Of a stretch of 33,857 bases of DNA, positions 3,639 through 8,362 are shown piece by piece. The notes below the pieces were generated by a model. It did not search any database and was not told where the DNA came from. It was given only the letters and a program-made list of their open reading frames with translations. How positions within the stretch are numbered: the first letter of the stretch is position 1; each line of letters starts with the position of its first letter. Where the stretch lies: NCBI GenBank assembly GCA_022703255.1, contig JAKLDZ010000011.1, positions 1 through 33,857 on the forward strand. Reading direction: 5' to 3'. Source of the stretch: Myxococcota bacterium. Lineage in GTDB: Bacteria > Myxococcota_A > Polyangia > Polyangiales > Polyangiaceae. The position numbers and the translations under genes are program-made.

Positions 3639-3741
3639 GCGAAGGGGCCGGGGGAGTGCCGTGTGGCGGGCGAAAGACGCTTGCTGCGCAGCGAGATTTG
3701 CGGTGTGATTCGGGTCTGCCGCAGAGGTGGGTGGAGAACGG

Positions 3742-5823
3742 ATGACGTTCCGCGGAGTCCAGAAGACGAAGTGCCCGGGCTGTGGCGCCGAGTTCGACGA
3801 CCCGGTGATCTTCTGCGGTGTTTGCGGAAAGCGCATAGCGGCCCAGCCAGCGCCGTCGTCGCCGTCTCGAGTCGGTGCGCCCCTCGATCCGACGGCGATC
3901 GCACGCGCGCGAGCGATCATTTCCCGTCCGCCCGTGACGGCCCCCGCGCAGGCGAGCCCGCCCGCTCCGCCTCCGGCGCCGGCGAAGGCCCCGCCACCGA
4001 GTGTCGCGCAGCAGCCGCCTGCCTCCGAGCCCAAGGCTCCCGCAGCACCTCCGGCTTCCCAACGCGGTGATGCGTCGGGTGGCGAACCTCCTCCTTCGCG
4101 CCCGATGTCGAAGTTCGAAGCGGTCGCGCGCGCGGTCCAGGCCGCGTTCTCCGGATCACGCGCCCCCGCGTCTTCGAGGAGCCCTGGCGCGCCGCCTCAG
4201 CAGCCCAAGGCGCAGCCTCCATCCTCCGACCGGAGCGCGCCCCGCTCGCAGCCCGAGCGGAAGCCCGACGCCGCTCCTGCCCCGAGAACGGGCGCGCGCA
4301 TCGACGTGACTCCGCGGCCGCCGGTGGAGCCGCGGATCGAGGTCGTGCCCGCGCCTCGGCAGCCCGTGCGGGTGGAGCCGTCGGTCAAGCCGGTCCCCGC
4401 GACGCTCAAACCGCAGCAGTCGTCACCGCGGGTGGAGCCATCTCCGAAGCCCGCCTCGGCGACGCTCAAGCCGCAGCAGTCGCCCCCGCGGGTGGAGCCA
4501 TCTCCGAAGCCCGCCTCGGCGACGCTCAAGCCGCAGCAGTCGCCCCCGCGCGTGGAGACGTCGGCCAGGCCCGTCCCTGCGACGCTTCAACCGCAGCCGT
4601 CGACGCGTGTCGAGTCTGCGCCGAAGGCTGCTCCGGCGACGCTGCAACCGCAGCCGTCCGCGCCGCGCGTGGAGCCGGCGCCGAAGGCCGTCCCCGCGAC
4701 GCTGCAGCCGCAGCCGTCTGCGCGTGTGGAGCCGGTGCCTGCGACCAAGGAGTCCCCGGCGGCGGAACCTGTGGTGCCGAAGCCGGAGGGGTTGGGGCGC
4801 GGCGAGGCGCCGACGCTGGACTGGGGGTTCGGTCCGGACTCGGATCAGGCGCTGCTCGACGATCTCGATGCGGGCTTCTACATGATCGTGCAGGGGAAGA
4901 CCGAGTCGGGGGAGGGAGCGGCCGCGGAGGCGGCGGCGCCTGCGCAGCAGGAGGCTCGGGGTGAGCGTCCCGAGGACGTCGTTGCCGTGCGCGAGATGTT
5001 CGAGCAGTTGGCTCCGTTCTATGCGAAGCCGATCCGTGACTTCCTGATCGAGTCCGCGTGGGGAGATCCTCCGAAGACCTGGCTCTCGATCACGTTGCCG
5101 GCGGCACGGGCGCTGCGTCAGGCCGCCGAGAAGATGTCTCTGCCCGAGCTTGGCGTGGCACTGGCGGACTTCGTCGCAGCCCTCGAGGTGGCCGAGAGCG
5201 CGCCGGGCGCGCACGTGGGCAAGGAGGCGAAGGACTTCATCGCGGGCGCCTACGAGCGGCTCGTCACGGTGATGCCGAAGGTCTTCGCGTTGGAGCAGGA
5301 GCGCAGTGTCCGCGAGCCGATCATCGTGCACGCGATGCTGCAGCAGGTGCCCGGGTTGGGGAAGGTCGCGATCGATCGGATCTACGCCGCCGGCCTGTCG
5401 CAACTGGAGATGTTCTACACGGCGAAGCCCGGGGACATCGCGGCGGCGACCGGGATTCCGCTCGCGACGGCGCAGGTGCTGTGCGGCAGGTTCCGTGCGT
5501 ACCGCGACGAGGTGCAGCAGACGGCGCCCGATCAGCAGCGTCAGGCGGAGCGCAAGAAGCTCGAGGAGCTGGCCCATCAGCTGCGGGGGCTCAATCAGAC
5601 GTTCAAGGGGGCATCGACCTCCTGGTCCGCGCAGGCCGCGAAGGACAAGCGGTGGTTGCGGACCGAGAGGGAGCGCCTCTTTCTGGAGATGACGGTAGTG
5701 CTCGCGCGCATCGGCGAAGTGGAGCTGCTGAGGCGTCTCGAGAGGCTGCCGTTCGAGCGGAAGGTCGCGGAGCTCGAGGCCTTCCTGACCGAGAACCGAG
5801 GTGGAGGCCAGGCGGGCGGCTGA
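3742..5823 (+). CDS. Zinc-ribbon, proline-rich repeat and helix-hairpin-helix protein
   Basis: 693 residues, family not recognised as a whole. An N-terminal zinc ribbon has CPGC (11-14) and CGVC (25-28). Residues ~35-340 are Pro/Ala/Ser-rich and disordered, including six ~20-residue repeats of the form RVEPxPKPxxATLxPQxS (about 214-333). A folded C-terminal part begins near residue 360. It contains an all-helical region, then a helix-hairpin-helix-like segment (VPGLGKVAIDRIYAAGL near 536, plus a second hairpin IAAATGIPLATAQVL). A charged coiled coil follows (~595-660). HhH folds often bind DNA but also mediate protein contacts. A GGAG at 3733-3736 lies 5 bases before this ATG and decides it over the in-frame GTG at 3727. 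It is followed after 23 bases by the pentapeptide-bactofilin gene. I infer a scaffold or adaptor role in a bactofilin system, possibly linking it to DNA. Confidence 0.75.
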   Translation: MTFRGVQKTKCPGCGAEFDDPVIFCGVCGKRIAAQPAPSSPSRVGAPLDPTAIARARAIISRPPVTAPAQASPPAPPPAPAKAPPPSVAQQPPASEPKAPAAPPASQRGDASGGEPPPSRPMSKFEAVARAVQAAFSGSRAPASSRSPGAPPQQPKAQPPSSDRSAPRSQPERKPDAAPAPRTGARIDVTPRPPVEPRIEVVPAPRQPVRVEPSVKPVPATLKPQQSSPRVEPSPKPASATLKPQQSPPRVEPSPKPASATLKPQQSPPRVETSARPVPATLQPQPSTRVESAPKAAPATLQPQPSAPRVEPAPKAVPATLQPQPSARVEPVPATKESPAAEPVVPKPEGLGRGEAPTLDWGFGPDSDQALLDDLDAGFYMIVQGKTESGEGAAAEAAAPAQQEARGERPEDVVAVREMFEQLAPFYAKPIRDFLIESAWGDPPKTWLSITLPAARALRQAAEKMSLPELGVALADFVAALEVAESAPGAHVGKEAKDFIAGAYERLVTVMPKVFALEQERSVREPIIVHAMLQQVPGLGKVAIDRIYAAGLSQLEMFYTAKPGDIAAATGIPLATAQVLCGRFRAYRDEVQQTAPDQQRQAERKKLEELAHQLRGLNQTFKGASTSWSAQAAKDKRWLRTERERLFLEMTVVLARIGEVELLRRLERLPFERKVAELEAFLTENRGGGQAGG
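4381..4740 (+). repeat. In-frame ~60-bp tandem repeats
   Basis: About six units encode the 20-residue RVEPxPKPxxATLxPQxS repeat. Units 4441-4500 and 4501-4560 are almost identical. Later units diverge and some are shortened to 57 bases. All length changes are multiples of three, so the frame is kept. The near-identity of neighbouring units suggests recent duplication. Confidence 0.85.
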
Positions 5824-5846
5824 GGCCCCCAGATCGGGATGAACAG

Positions 5847-7082
5847 ATGACACGCGACGAAGTCCTGAAGAAGATCAGTGCCCGGGAGCCGCTGCAGCGC
5901 GCGGACCTTCGGGGGCTCGACCTGTCCAACGCCGAGCTCGGGGGAGGCGACTTCCGTCGGGCCGATCTCGAGGGGGCGAACCTCGAAAACGCGAAGCTGC
6001 GCGGCGCGGACCTGCGCAACGCCAGCCTCGGAGAAGCGTTCCTCAAGGGCGCCGACCTGCGCGAGGCCAACCTCGACAAGGCGGACCTCGAAGGCGCCAA
6101 CCTCGAGGGCGCCGATCTGAGCGGAGCGAACCTCGCGCGAGCGAGCCTCGACGGCGCGAACATGACGAGCGCGAACCTGGAGCGGGCCGTGCTCACCAAC
6201 GCGCAGCTGTGCGGTGCGCGCCTCGGCACCTCCAAGCTCGCTGGCGCCCAGCTCTCCCATGCCGACCTGAACGAGGCCTACCTCGGAGGCTCCGATCTGT
6301 CGGACGTCGATCTGGAGAACGCCGACCTGTCCGCGGCGAATCTCGAGGAGGCCGTGCTCGCCGGCGCGAAGCTCGACGACGCCTCCCTCAAGTCGGTCTT
6401 CGCGCCCAAGGCCAAGCTCGTCGGCGCCTCGCTCGTGGCGGCCGATCTGTCCAAGGGCGTGCTCGACGGCGCCGACCTCACCGGTGCCGATCTGCGCAAG
6501 GCGATCCTCGACGACGCGTCCTTCTCGGACGTGCGAATGACGGGAGCCAAGGTCGCTGGGATTTCGTGTCGTAAGACGAACTTCCAGGGGCTGCTCGCGG
6601 AGTGGGTGGACAACAGCCCCAGCGTCGAGGAGGTCCAAAAGCTCACAGGCCCGGCCATCCTCGCGTCGCTCACCGGCGAAGCCCCACGCATGCCCGCCGG
6701 CGTGCGCTACTTCGGCGAAGGCGACGTCATGCGCAACGCGAGCCTGGAGTTCGGCGACGGCGCCAGCGTGCTCGTCGAGAGCCGGTTCGAGCAGTGCTCC
6801 ATCGCCATCGGCCAGGGCACCGCGCTGGTCGTGGGCAAGGCGGGCGTTCTCTCGCAGTGCCAGATCAACGGCCCGGGCGAGATCACGATCCACGGCCAGT
6901 TCGTGGAGAAGAAGAGCCCGGGCATCGTGCAACCCAATACCCTGGTGGTCACCTCGGGCGGACTGGTCCAGGGCGTGGTCGAACAGGGCAACGTGCCCAC
7001 CCGATTCGGATTCGAGTCCGGGTGCAAGCTGCGACTCAAGATCCTCCGCGCAAAGAACGCGGAAGGGAACGGCGAAAGGTAG
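5847..7082 (+). CDS. Pentapeptide-repeat protein with bactofilin-like C-terminal domain
   Basis: 411 residues. After a short helical N-terminus (residues 1-18), about 46 pentapeptide repeats of the A(D/N)LxX type run in nearly perfect register from residue 19 to ~249. They should form a long right-handed quadrilateral beta-helix of about 11-12 coils. A linker (250-290) follows. A second beta-rich domain (about 291-400) reads EFGDGASVLVES, QGTALVVGKAG, GPGEITIHGQF and SGGLVQGVVEQG. That resembles the polymer-forming bactofilin fold (DUF583) and the bactofilin encoded immediately downstream. There is no signal peptide, so it should be cytoplasmic. The start at 5847 directly precedes the helical cap; an upstream in-frame extension is out-of-frame translation of the previous gene. 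I infer that it co-assembles with, or caps, bactofilin filaments. Confidence 0.85.
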   Translation: MTRDEVLKKISAREPLQRADLRGLDLSNAELGGGDFRRADLEGANLENAKLRGADLRNASLGEAFLKGADLREANLDKADLEGANLEGADLSGANLARASLDGANMTSANLERAVLTNAQLCGARLGTSKLAGAQLSHADLNEAYLGGSDLSDVDLENADLSAANLEEAVLAGAKLDDASLKSVFAPKAKLVGASLVAADLSKGVLDGADLTGADLRKAILDDASFSDVRMTGAKVAGISCRKTNFQGLLAEWVDNSPSVEEVQKLTGPAILASLTGEAPRMPAGVRYFGEGDVMRNASLEFGDGASVLVESRFEQCSIAIGQGTALVVGKAGVLSQCQINGPGEITIHGQFVEKKSPGIVQPNTLVVTSGGLVQGVVEQGNVPTRFGFESGCKLRLKILRAKNAEGNGER

Positions 7083-7088
7083 GCGACG

Positions 7089-7529
7089 ATGACGAACGGC
7101 AACCAGGCCGACGGCGGCAAGAGGACGCTGGTCGAAGAGGGAACCGAGGTCCAGGGCTCGATCAAGTCGACCTGCCCGGTGCTCGTGCGCGGTCGCATCG
7201 AGGGCGACATCGAAGCGCCTTCCATGACGGTCAGCCCGTCGGGCGCGGTGCATGGACGCGTGAAGGTCGGTGAGCTCAAGTCCGAAGGCGAGATCGCCGG
7301 CGAGTATCAGGCCGACACCGTGCAGCTCTCCGGCAGGGTCCGCGACAAGACCGTGCTCAAGGCCCGTTCGCTCGAGGTCAAGCTCGACGCGAAAGAGTCC
7401 GGCCTGCAGGTCGTGTTCGGCGAGTGCGAGCTCGAGGTGGGCGACGCGCCGACGACCAAGGCGGAGAAGCGCAAGCGGGGCGGCGCCACCGAAGGGGAGC
7501 CCACTCCCGAGCCCGAGCCCCAGGGCTGA
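7089..7529 (+). CDS. Bactofilin (polymer-forming cytoskeletal protein)
   Basis: 146 residues, a typical bactofilin length. The central domain (about 13-118) has the short, valine- and glycine-rich strands of the bactofilin beta-helix: VEEGTEVQGSI, CPVLVRGRIEGDI, SPSGAVHGRVKVGEL, SEGEIAGEY and DTVQLSGRV. Flexible tails flank it; the C-terminal one (119-146) is Lys/Pro/Glu-rich. Bactofilins polymerise without nucleotide into filaments that organise cell shape, polarity or chromosome-segregation proteins. The ATG lies 6 bases after the pentapeptide gene, with an AAAGG at 7075-7079, so the three genes from 3742 form one transcription unit. Two differently built bactofilin-type proteins side by side suggest hetero-polymers. 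Confidence 0.92.
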   Translation: MTNGNQADGGKRTLVEEGTEVQGSIKSTCPVLVRGRIEGDIEAPSMTVSPSGAVHGRVKVGELKSEGEIAGEYQADTVQLSGRVRDKTVLKARSLEVKLDAKESGLQVVFGECELEVGDAPTTKAEKRKRGGATEGEPTPEPEPQG

Positions 7530-7577
7530 CTCCGTCTCGGACCTCCCACGGCAGACCACGCCCGTGGCCGTCGTCCA

Positions 7578-7880
7578 TCAGCGCGTCATCTCGAGCGAGT
7601 GGCACGTCACCGTGCCGTCGCACGGCCCCTTCGGCTCCCGGCAGTCGCACGGATCGAAGTGGCCCGGCTGCGCCTGCGATGCGCACTGCGCCGCGGACTT
7701 CGGCGCCTCCTGCGGTGTAGGGACGCACACCTCCACCTCGTGCTTCGCTCGATCGTCGTAGTCCGTGAGATAGGGGCAGGTGCAGTGGAACCACTGCCCC
7801 GGGCGAGCCTTGCTGCGTCCACACGCGGGCAGGACCGCACACAGTGCTGCGACGATGAGCATGCCGTGGCCGAACCGCAT
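7578..7880 (-). CDS. Small cysteine-rich lipoprotein
   Basis: 100 residues, family not recognised. A type II signal peptide has hydrophobic residues 7-17 and lipobox LPAC with Cys20. The mature part has eight further cysteines (33, 35, 52, 66, 78, 80, 87, 93). They fall in two similar halves: CTCPxxT..C..C and CDCRxxK..C..C. This suggests a duplicated disulfide-stabilised unit or a metal site. The start at 7880 is chosen because it gives the Met-Arg n-region of the signal peptide. The upstream in-frame sequence is Arg/Pro-rich and unlikely to be coding. The gene converges on the bactofilin gene with a 48-base gap. Confidence 0.72.
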   Translation of the reverse strand: MRFGHGMLIVAALCAVLPACGRSKARPGQWFHCTCPYLTDYDDRAKHEVEVCVPTPQEAPKSAAQCASQAQPGHFDPCDCREPKGPCDGTVTCHSLEMTR

Positions 7881-8041
7881 CGGGAGGGTGATCCCGTGGC
7901 GTGCTGGCCGCGTCAACAGCGTCCGTCCCGGCCGGCGCGCTTGAGGACGGCACGGCGAGCGCGACGCTGTCCCGGCTGCAGCATCAAGATACGATCGGAG
8001 CGCGGATGACCGAGGGGCGGTCATCGCGAAGCGTCCCCGAG

Positions 8042-8051
8042 GGGAGGGAGG
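8042..8051 (+). promoter_or_regulatory. Strong ribosome-binding site of the GYD gene
   Basis: GGGAGGGAGG ends 5 bases before ATG 8057. It sets that start and rules out the longer frame that opens at 7901. Confidence 0.7.
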
Positions 8052-8056
8052 TCGAG

Positions 8057-8362
8057 ATGCCGACGTTCGTGCTGATGACGAAGATGAGCCCGGAGCTCGC
8101 AGGCGATCCGCGCGGCCGCAAGAGCGCGGGACGCGACTGGATGCGACAGGTCACCGAGCGCTGCCCGGGGGTGAAGTGGCTCGGGCACTACGCCCTGCTG
8201 GGCCAGTACGACTTCATGGACATCTACGACGCGCCGGATCTGGAGACGGCGCACAAGGTTTCGTACCTGTCGATGGCCGGAGGCGCCGCCAGCGCGGAAA
8301 GCTGGCCCGCCATGCCCTACGAACGCTTCATCGAGCTCGTCACCACGACCGACCGTCGCTAG
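8057..8362 (+). CDS. GYD domain protein
   Basis: 101 residues. It matches the GYD family (named for its Gly-Tyr-Asp motif): MPTFVLMTKM first strand, HYALLGQYDFMDIYDAPDLETA with the G-Q-Y-D core (residues ~49-52), and a final PYERFIELV. GYD proteins are small ferredoxin-like alpha/beta cytoplasmic proteins related to dimeric alpha/beta-barrel folds. Their biochemical role is unknown. It stands alone: divergent from the small lipoprotein and convergent with the next minus-strand gene. The start is fixed by the strong ribosome site just upstream. Confidence 0.85.
   Translation: MPTFVLMTKMSPELAGDPRGRKSAGRDWMRQVTERCPGVKWLGHYALLGQYDFMDIYDAPDLETAHKVSYLSMAGGAASAESWPAMPYERFIELVTTTDRR

Follow-up and report, generated by a model that had tools for sequence, protein, structure and literature searches.

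A conserved bactofilin gene module with a pentapeptide-repeat partner and a putative helix-hairpin-helix adaptor in one order of Myxococcota

Results

Organization of the module

Three adjacent genes, termed A, B, and C, belong together as one inherited unit in a single order of the Myxococcota. They were identified in the window, the whole 33,857-nucleotide stretch of DNA that was analyzed, which comes from a draft genome (6.3 Mb, 932 contigs, 73.5% complete). Gene A (positions 3742–5823, + strand) was delineated from its ORF, its domain matches, and the gene order, and encodes a 693-residue putative adaptor consisting of a zinc ribbon, a disordered linker, a short motif, and an all-helical body with a helix-hairpin-helix (HhH) domain; a GTG at 3727 is a possible alternative start. 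Gene B (5847–7082, + strand) encodes a protein of 411 residues that joins pentapeptide repeats to a C-terminal domain specific to the module. Gene C (7089–7529, + strand) encodes a 146-residue bactofilin of a module-specific subfamily that does not carry a membrane-targeting peptide. All three genes are on the forward strand with gaps of 23 nt between A and B and 6 nt between B and C, and an earlier reading made from the sequence alone had the coordinates and this tight packing right. We put the chances at somewhat better than even that A-B-C is an operon complete in itself, encoding an undescribed intracellular scaffold in which C would be the filament, B its co-component, and A the adaptor.

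A promoter and terminator scan gave no signal above chance, and the window gave no PADLOC match to a defense system. A larger operon was considered and rejected, as no window ORF outside about 3.7 to 7.6 kb is common to the flanks of the relatives.

Conservation and distribution of the module

Relatives of the module were found by profile and then read locus by locus. A single-sequence contig scan yielded one relative only, and genome profile searches recovered far more. The sequence-only reading would have been refuted if the three genes were not neighbors in relatives. Of the 41 loci examined, which come from 40 genomes of the order, 38 keep A-B-C in this order on one strand. Two of the three exceptions are contig ends (one contig begins inside B in L059, the other stops inside B in L060), and the third is a natural gene fusion in genome G461. 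Measured from start codons, the intergenic distances range from −1 to 81 nt in the nine loci covered. B is present in 39 of the 184 genomes and 22 of the 84 genera of the order, or about one fifth of the sampled genomes. Complete relatives in the same family lack the module, so its presence is patchy. Strong matches to A or B are confined to this order in a 379-genome sample of the phylum, where the single B match outside it is marginal (E = 4e-4). Allowing for the two contig ends, the strong A matches and the strong B matches in this sample come from the same genomes. Pairwise distances between orthologues are correlated among the three genes (distance matrices, r = 0.88, 0.80, and 0.65; Mantel p = 0.0001–0.002). 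The dN/dS ratios between the window and a congener are about 0.25 for B, about 0.19 for C, and 0.40 for the C-terminal body of A. By these ratios, B and C are under purifying selection, and the body of A is more loosely constrained. Two copies of the module were found in one genome alone, G477 (L204 and L205), and A is strongly diverged in both.

No flanking gene is common to the module across genera. The sole recurring neighbor is dnaE, which lies upstream of the module in one genus only (for example L057, 9872–13486), and a ruvC-like gene adjoins the module in one genome (L055, 5394–5966); neither forms part of a broader pattern. The scaffold would organize some cargo, and the neighboring genes give no hint at what that cargo is.

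C is a bactofilin of a distinct subfamily

The identification of C as a bactofilin in the sequence-only reading was borne out. Residues encoded by positions 7125–7400 (+ strand) match PF04519 with 51.1 bits against a cut-off of 27.9 (E = 1.6e-13), and the closest solved structure is the bactofilin 6ria (E = 7e-7). C thus matches the family of canonical bactofilins, such as Caulobacter BacA, above the cut-off, but it differs from them in two respects. The C proteins form a distinct subfamily, the profile of which reaches E < 1e-60 inside the module only, and ordinary bactofilins are encoded elsewhere in the genome. The N-terminal membrane-targeting peptide of the MFSKKKK type, which is common but not universal among canonical bactofilins, is absent from all module C proteins searched (0 of 40). 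In the proposed scaffold, C would polymerize without nucleotides, as other bactofilins do.

The C proteins have disordered tails, and those of L057, L058, L013, L059, L182, L186, and others have a recurring S.PPPA-like end or a KRK-type basic cluster. By analogy with the tail of BacP, these motifs are a possible docking site.

B joins a pentapeptide solenoid to a private C-terminal domain

The N-terminal 235 to 250 residues or so of B form a pentapeptide-repeat beta-solenoid (positions 5895–6596, + strand; PF00805, E = 1e-53) that is modeled with pLDDT values mostly above 90. The closest natural structure is HetL (3du1, E = 7e-15), and MfpA and QnrB also match in fold. B has the same solenoid as these pentapeptide-repeat proteins (HetL, MfpA, Qnr) and differs from them in its C-terminal beta domain and its genetic tie to a bactofilin. 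The C-terminal domain (positions 6699–7046, + strand) has about 115 residues, belongs to no named family, and, one marginal match aside, accompanies only the module across the searched genomes. The relatives are 44–69% identical to the window in this domain, and it has no match in Pfam, PDB sequences, or bactofilin profiles.

The sequence-only reading described B as ending in a bactofilin domain. We did not detect a bactofilin Pfam domain in B from the window or in nine homologues, and hhalign comparison of the C-terminal domain with bactofilins gave probabilities of 2% and 22% over 16–19 columns. A pentapeptide-bactofilin fusion is unsupported by either approach and was dropped. Inspected for the right-handed beta-helix fold of bactofilins, the model of the domain contains many short strands with pLDDT mostly 30–60; it was built from the rows of the window and one relative (L017), which limits it. 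The domain is not recognizable as a bactofilin and its model is of low confidence, so B may stay outside the filament. The proposed role of B is that of a rigid solenoid that would act, with its private C-terminal domain, as an obligate co-component of C.

The fold of B also raises the idea that B is a DNA mimic that acts on DNA gyrase in the manner of MfpA or Qnr, with A and C merely positioning it. The match to MfpA and QnrB and the acidic character of B (pI 4.9) are in keeping with this function, but B scores far below the curated cut-offs for both families (63.9 against 360 for MfpA and 67.9 against 240 for Qnr), and its closest natural structure is HetL rather than Qnr. A plasmid search with B gave only generic pentapeptide matches among the matches listed. 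We regard a gyrase-directed function as highly improbable.

A has an exchangeable N terminus and a variable linker

The zinc ribbon of A (CPGCGAEFDDPVIFCGVC; positions 3763–3837, + strand) corresponds to residues 8–32 and matches Zn_ribbon_3 with E = 8e-4. This match is under the Pfam cut-off, but the CxxC...CxxC cysteines are intact, and the zinc ribbon recognized by the sequence-only reading stands on this basis. The ribbon is one of two alternative N termini. Of 40 A-type N termini, 15 (including the fusion) have a zinc ribbon and 12 have a short amphipathic peptide of the MGLFSKLF type (M[GS][LIF]FS[KR][LI]F). The two never occur together, and the remaining 13 N termini lack either. Three of the 12 peptide assignments depend on inspection by eye or on non-ATG starts, and 2 of the 13 proteins with neither are cut by contig ends. 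The probability of zero overlap by chance would be 0.0009 if the loci were independent; the genomes are related, and the value is descriptive only.

The distribution of the zinc ribbon on the B tree can be explained by one or two changes. The peptide occurs on both sides of the midpoint of this tree, the root of which was not inferred. The peptide accordingly looks like the older state and the ribbon, in the clade of the window, like its later replacement. The membrane-targeting sequence of bactofilins has been defined experimentally as MFSKQAKS in Caulobacter BacA, with a global consensus of MFSKKKK (PMC12448750). The MGLFSKLF-type peptide of A reads as similar to this sequence. The simplest reading is that A rather than C bears the membrane address. 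The swappable N terminus would thus serve as the address of the scaffold, specified by a putatively membrane-binding peptide or, in the clade of the window, by the zinc ribbon.

The ribbon is followed by a disordered linker (positions 3841–4836, + strand) rich in Pro (26%) and Ala (17%). The very long, repeat-containing disordered linker described in the sequence-only reading is present in the window, but it does not extend to the family. Linker length differs widely among relatives, and the repeats are a local expansion of a 60-bp unit (5.9 tandem copies, positions 4368–4718, + strand) that is missing from the same-genus relative L017. A pattern search combined with reading by eye located a short linear motif in the linker (LLDDLDAGFYMIV; positions 4852–4890, + strand). 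About 25 of 39 A proteins have a similar form of this LDDLDAGFDxIL-type motif, which is kept although the surrounding linker is barely alignable. This element of the disordered linker may be a recognition motif.

The body of A contains a RadA-like HhH domain

The conserved C-terminal body of A (positions 4969–5820, + strand) was defined by alignment and is all-helical in a model with a mean pLDDT of 75. It contains an HhH domain of the RadA N-terminal-domain type (positions 5335–5475, + strand) that was assigned from HHH_5, a RadA profile match, and Foldseek. The HHH_5 match itself is sub-threshold (residues 532–578, E = 3e-4), and the assignment is backed by eight of nine A homologues. The A family profile matches archaeal RadA with E = 4.9e-7, and the predicted body superimposes on the RadA N-terminal domain with an rmsd of about 2 Å over 54 residues (Foldseek probability 1.00) in models built on a two-row alignment of the window and L017. 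Structure prediction thus agrees with the HhH fold that the sequence-only reading assigned to the C-terminal part of A, and its broader view, in which A is the adaptor partner in a bactofilin module, is retained. The HhH region of A resembles that of RadA and Rad51 in both fold and sequence, but A is without the recombinase core. Weak HhH matches to proteins of about 550–620 residues in many genomes were set aside, as they seem to come from other kinds of HhH protein, NusA-like and UvrC-like ones among them.

A natural fusion suggests that the body of A docks to B

The fusion protein of G461 (L186, 5776–7518) consists of a zinc ribbon, a Pro-rich linker, and a motif of sequence SEIDASFGEL that continue in frame into B. 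The HhH body of A was not found in this genome, a draft of 93% completeness. The fusion gene retains the B ATG preceded by a ribosome-binding-like AAGGAG, and B may also be translated separately from this internal start. With the body gone and the rest of A covalently joined to B, the body would normally supply the link between A and B. This single case in a draft genome suggests that the HhH body docks A onto B, and in the proposed scaffold the body would dock to B or to the B-C assembly.

A shared operon can mean a shared pathway instead of a complex. The three genes could be co-transcribed for one process, for example in the envelope or in morphology, and their products might never form a single complex. 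In favor of such an arrangement, what the analysis shows is gene order and co-occurrence. The in-frame fusion of the N-terminal half of A to B argues against it, as does the finding that A, B, and a C subfamily reserved to the module occur only together. We judge this explanation quite unlikely.

A sister family and the DNA and GTPase hypotheses

A family of shorter proteins, A-short (about 290–320 residues), occurs in 8 of the 379 genomes, in other classes of the phylum. These proteins are co-linear with the body of A (hhalign probability 98%, E = 2.7e-14) and share its helical architecture and HhH domain, but they are without the zinc ribbon, the long linker, B, or C. Their genes were mapped at L014 2573–3484, L061 4546–5514, L062 3101–4186, L063 5255–6112, L064 688–1545, L065 4844–5731, and L066 4861–5667. 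The neighbors encode Roadblock/LC7, DUF4388, and HU-like proteins, and several loci also contain MglA/Arf-like GTPase genes. We found no published description of the family. By analogy, these neighborhoods give rise to the idea that A might be linked to polarity GTPases or to DNA.

Classical HhH motifs contact the DNA backbone through a phosphate-binding GxG hairpin. Of 39 A proteins, only 6 have this hairpin intact, including that of the window (VPGLGK), and the other 33 have lost it, with PDVRK as a frequent substitute. The loss in most members is a second difference from RadA/Rad51 and sets A apart from A-short, in which the hairpin is intact in all seven aligned proteins. The net charge is about +1 for the HhH region of A and about 0 for the entire body. 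The sequence-only reading had suggested that the zinc ribbon and the HhH motifs of A bind DNA and thereby anchor bactofilin filaments to the chromosome. The hairpin of the window, the fold shared with the RadA N-terminal domain, and the HU-like DNA-binding protein genes beside the GxG-containing sister family all speak for this proposal. There is also a precedent in PadC, a myxobacterial bactofilin adaptor that connects bactofilins to ParABS (PMC5703909). Against it are the rarity of the GxG hairpin in A, the near-neutral body, the restriction of the zinc ribbon to 15 of 40 proteins, and the failure to find the body in G461. A general DNA-tether function of the A family is not supported by these sequence features, and we consider DNA tethering unlikely as the role of the module. 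The A protein of the window retains GxG, and so this particular protein may bind DNA.

Alternatively, A may serve as the connection between the bactofilin scaffold and a polarity system of small GTPases and Roadblock proteins. Such a link is suggested by the position of A-short among Roadblock/LC7 and Arf/MglA-like GTPase genes, and work in Myxococcus has implicated BacP in the positioning of the GTPase SofG (PMC5703909). However, the surroundings of A-B-C showed neither a GTPase gene nor a Roadblock gene, and the homology between A and A-short is limited to the body. We hold a GTPase connection to be decidedly unlikely.

Discussion

The module is of a known kind, the bactofilin-plus-adaptor operon; what we did not find described is this composition, the private domain of B, and the interchangeable address on the adaptor. 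No paper in the literature searched, which left subscription journals mostly uncovered, mentions a bactofilin together with a pentapeptide repeat or a helix-hairpin-helix; the sequence-only reading, too, could name no described system of this composition. Bactofilins are widespread and few of their partners are known. The module adds two partner families not found described in the papers searched, and one of them (B) contains a domain without a family name. The switch between membrane peptide and zinc ribbon at the N terminus of A, with neither on C, makes the question of how bactofilins are directed to different places directly testable. A bolder proposal, to which we assign a minority but appreciable chance, is that A-B-C represents a new scaffold class in which the filament would need a solenoid partner and take its address from an adaptor with a swappable N terminus (membrane peptide or zinc ribbon); in this view, other members of the phylum employ the adaptor fold next to GTPase/Roadblock and HU-like genes.

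The closest described counterpart is the myxobacterial BacNOP-PadC system of Myxococcus xanthus, in which an adaptor gene likewise lies next to the bactofilin genes. PadC is encoded beside bacNOP and has a long disordered N terminus and a C-terminal part that binds the tail of BacP (PMC5703909). PadC and A are alike in having a disordered N-terminal half, a folded C-terminal body, and a gene near a bactofilin. In contrast, the ParB-like (ParBC) domain of PadC is not matched in A in Pfam or NCBIfam, and there is no recognized relation between the two proteins. A-B-C resembles the PadC system in logic and is unrelated to it in sequence. The module also differs from BacNOP in having one bactofilin rather than three and in containing B, which has no counterpart there. 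The genome of the window has a separate bactofilin trio, with no padC directly beside it. The trio (L144, about 7141–8175, on contig C490) consists of three tandem ordinary bactofilins in a BacNOP-like arrangement, the last of which has a long basic-tailed C terminus and is followed by pyrE-like and tdk-like genes.
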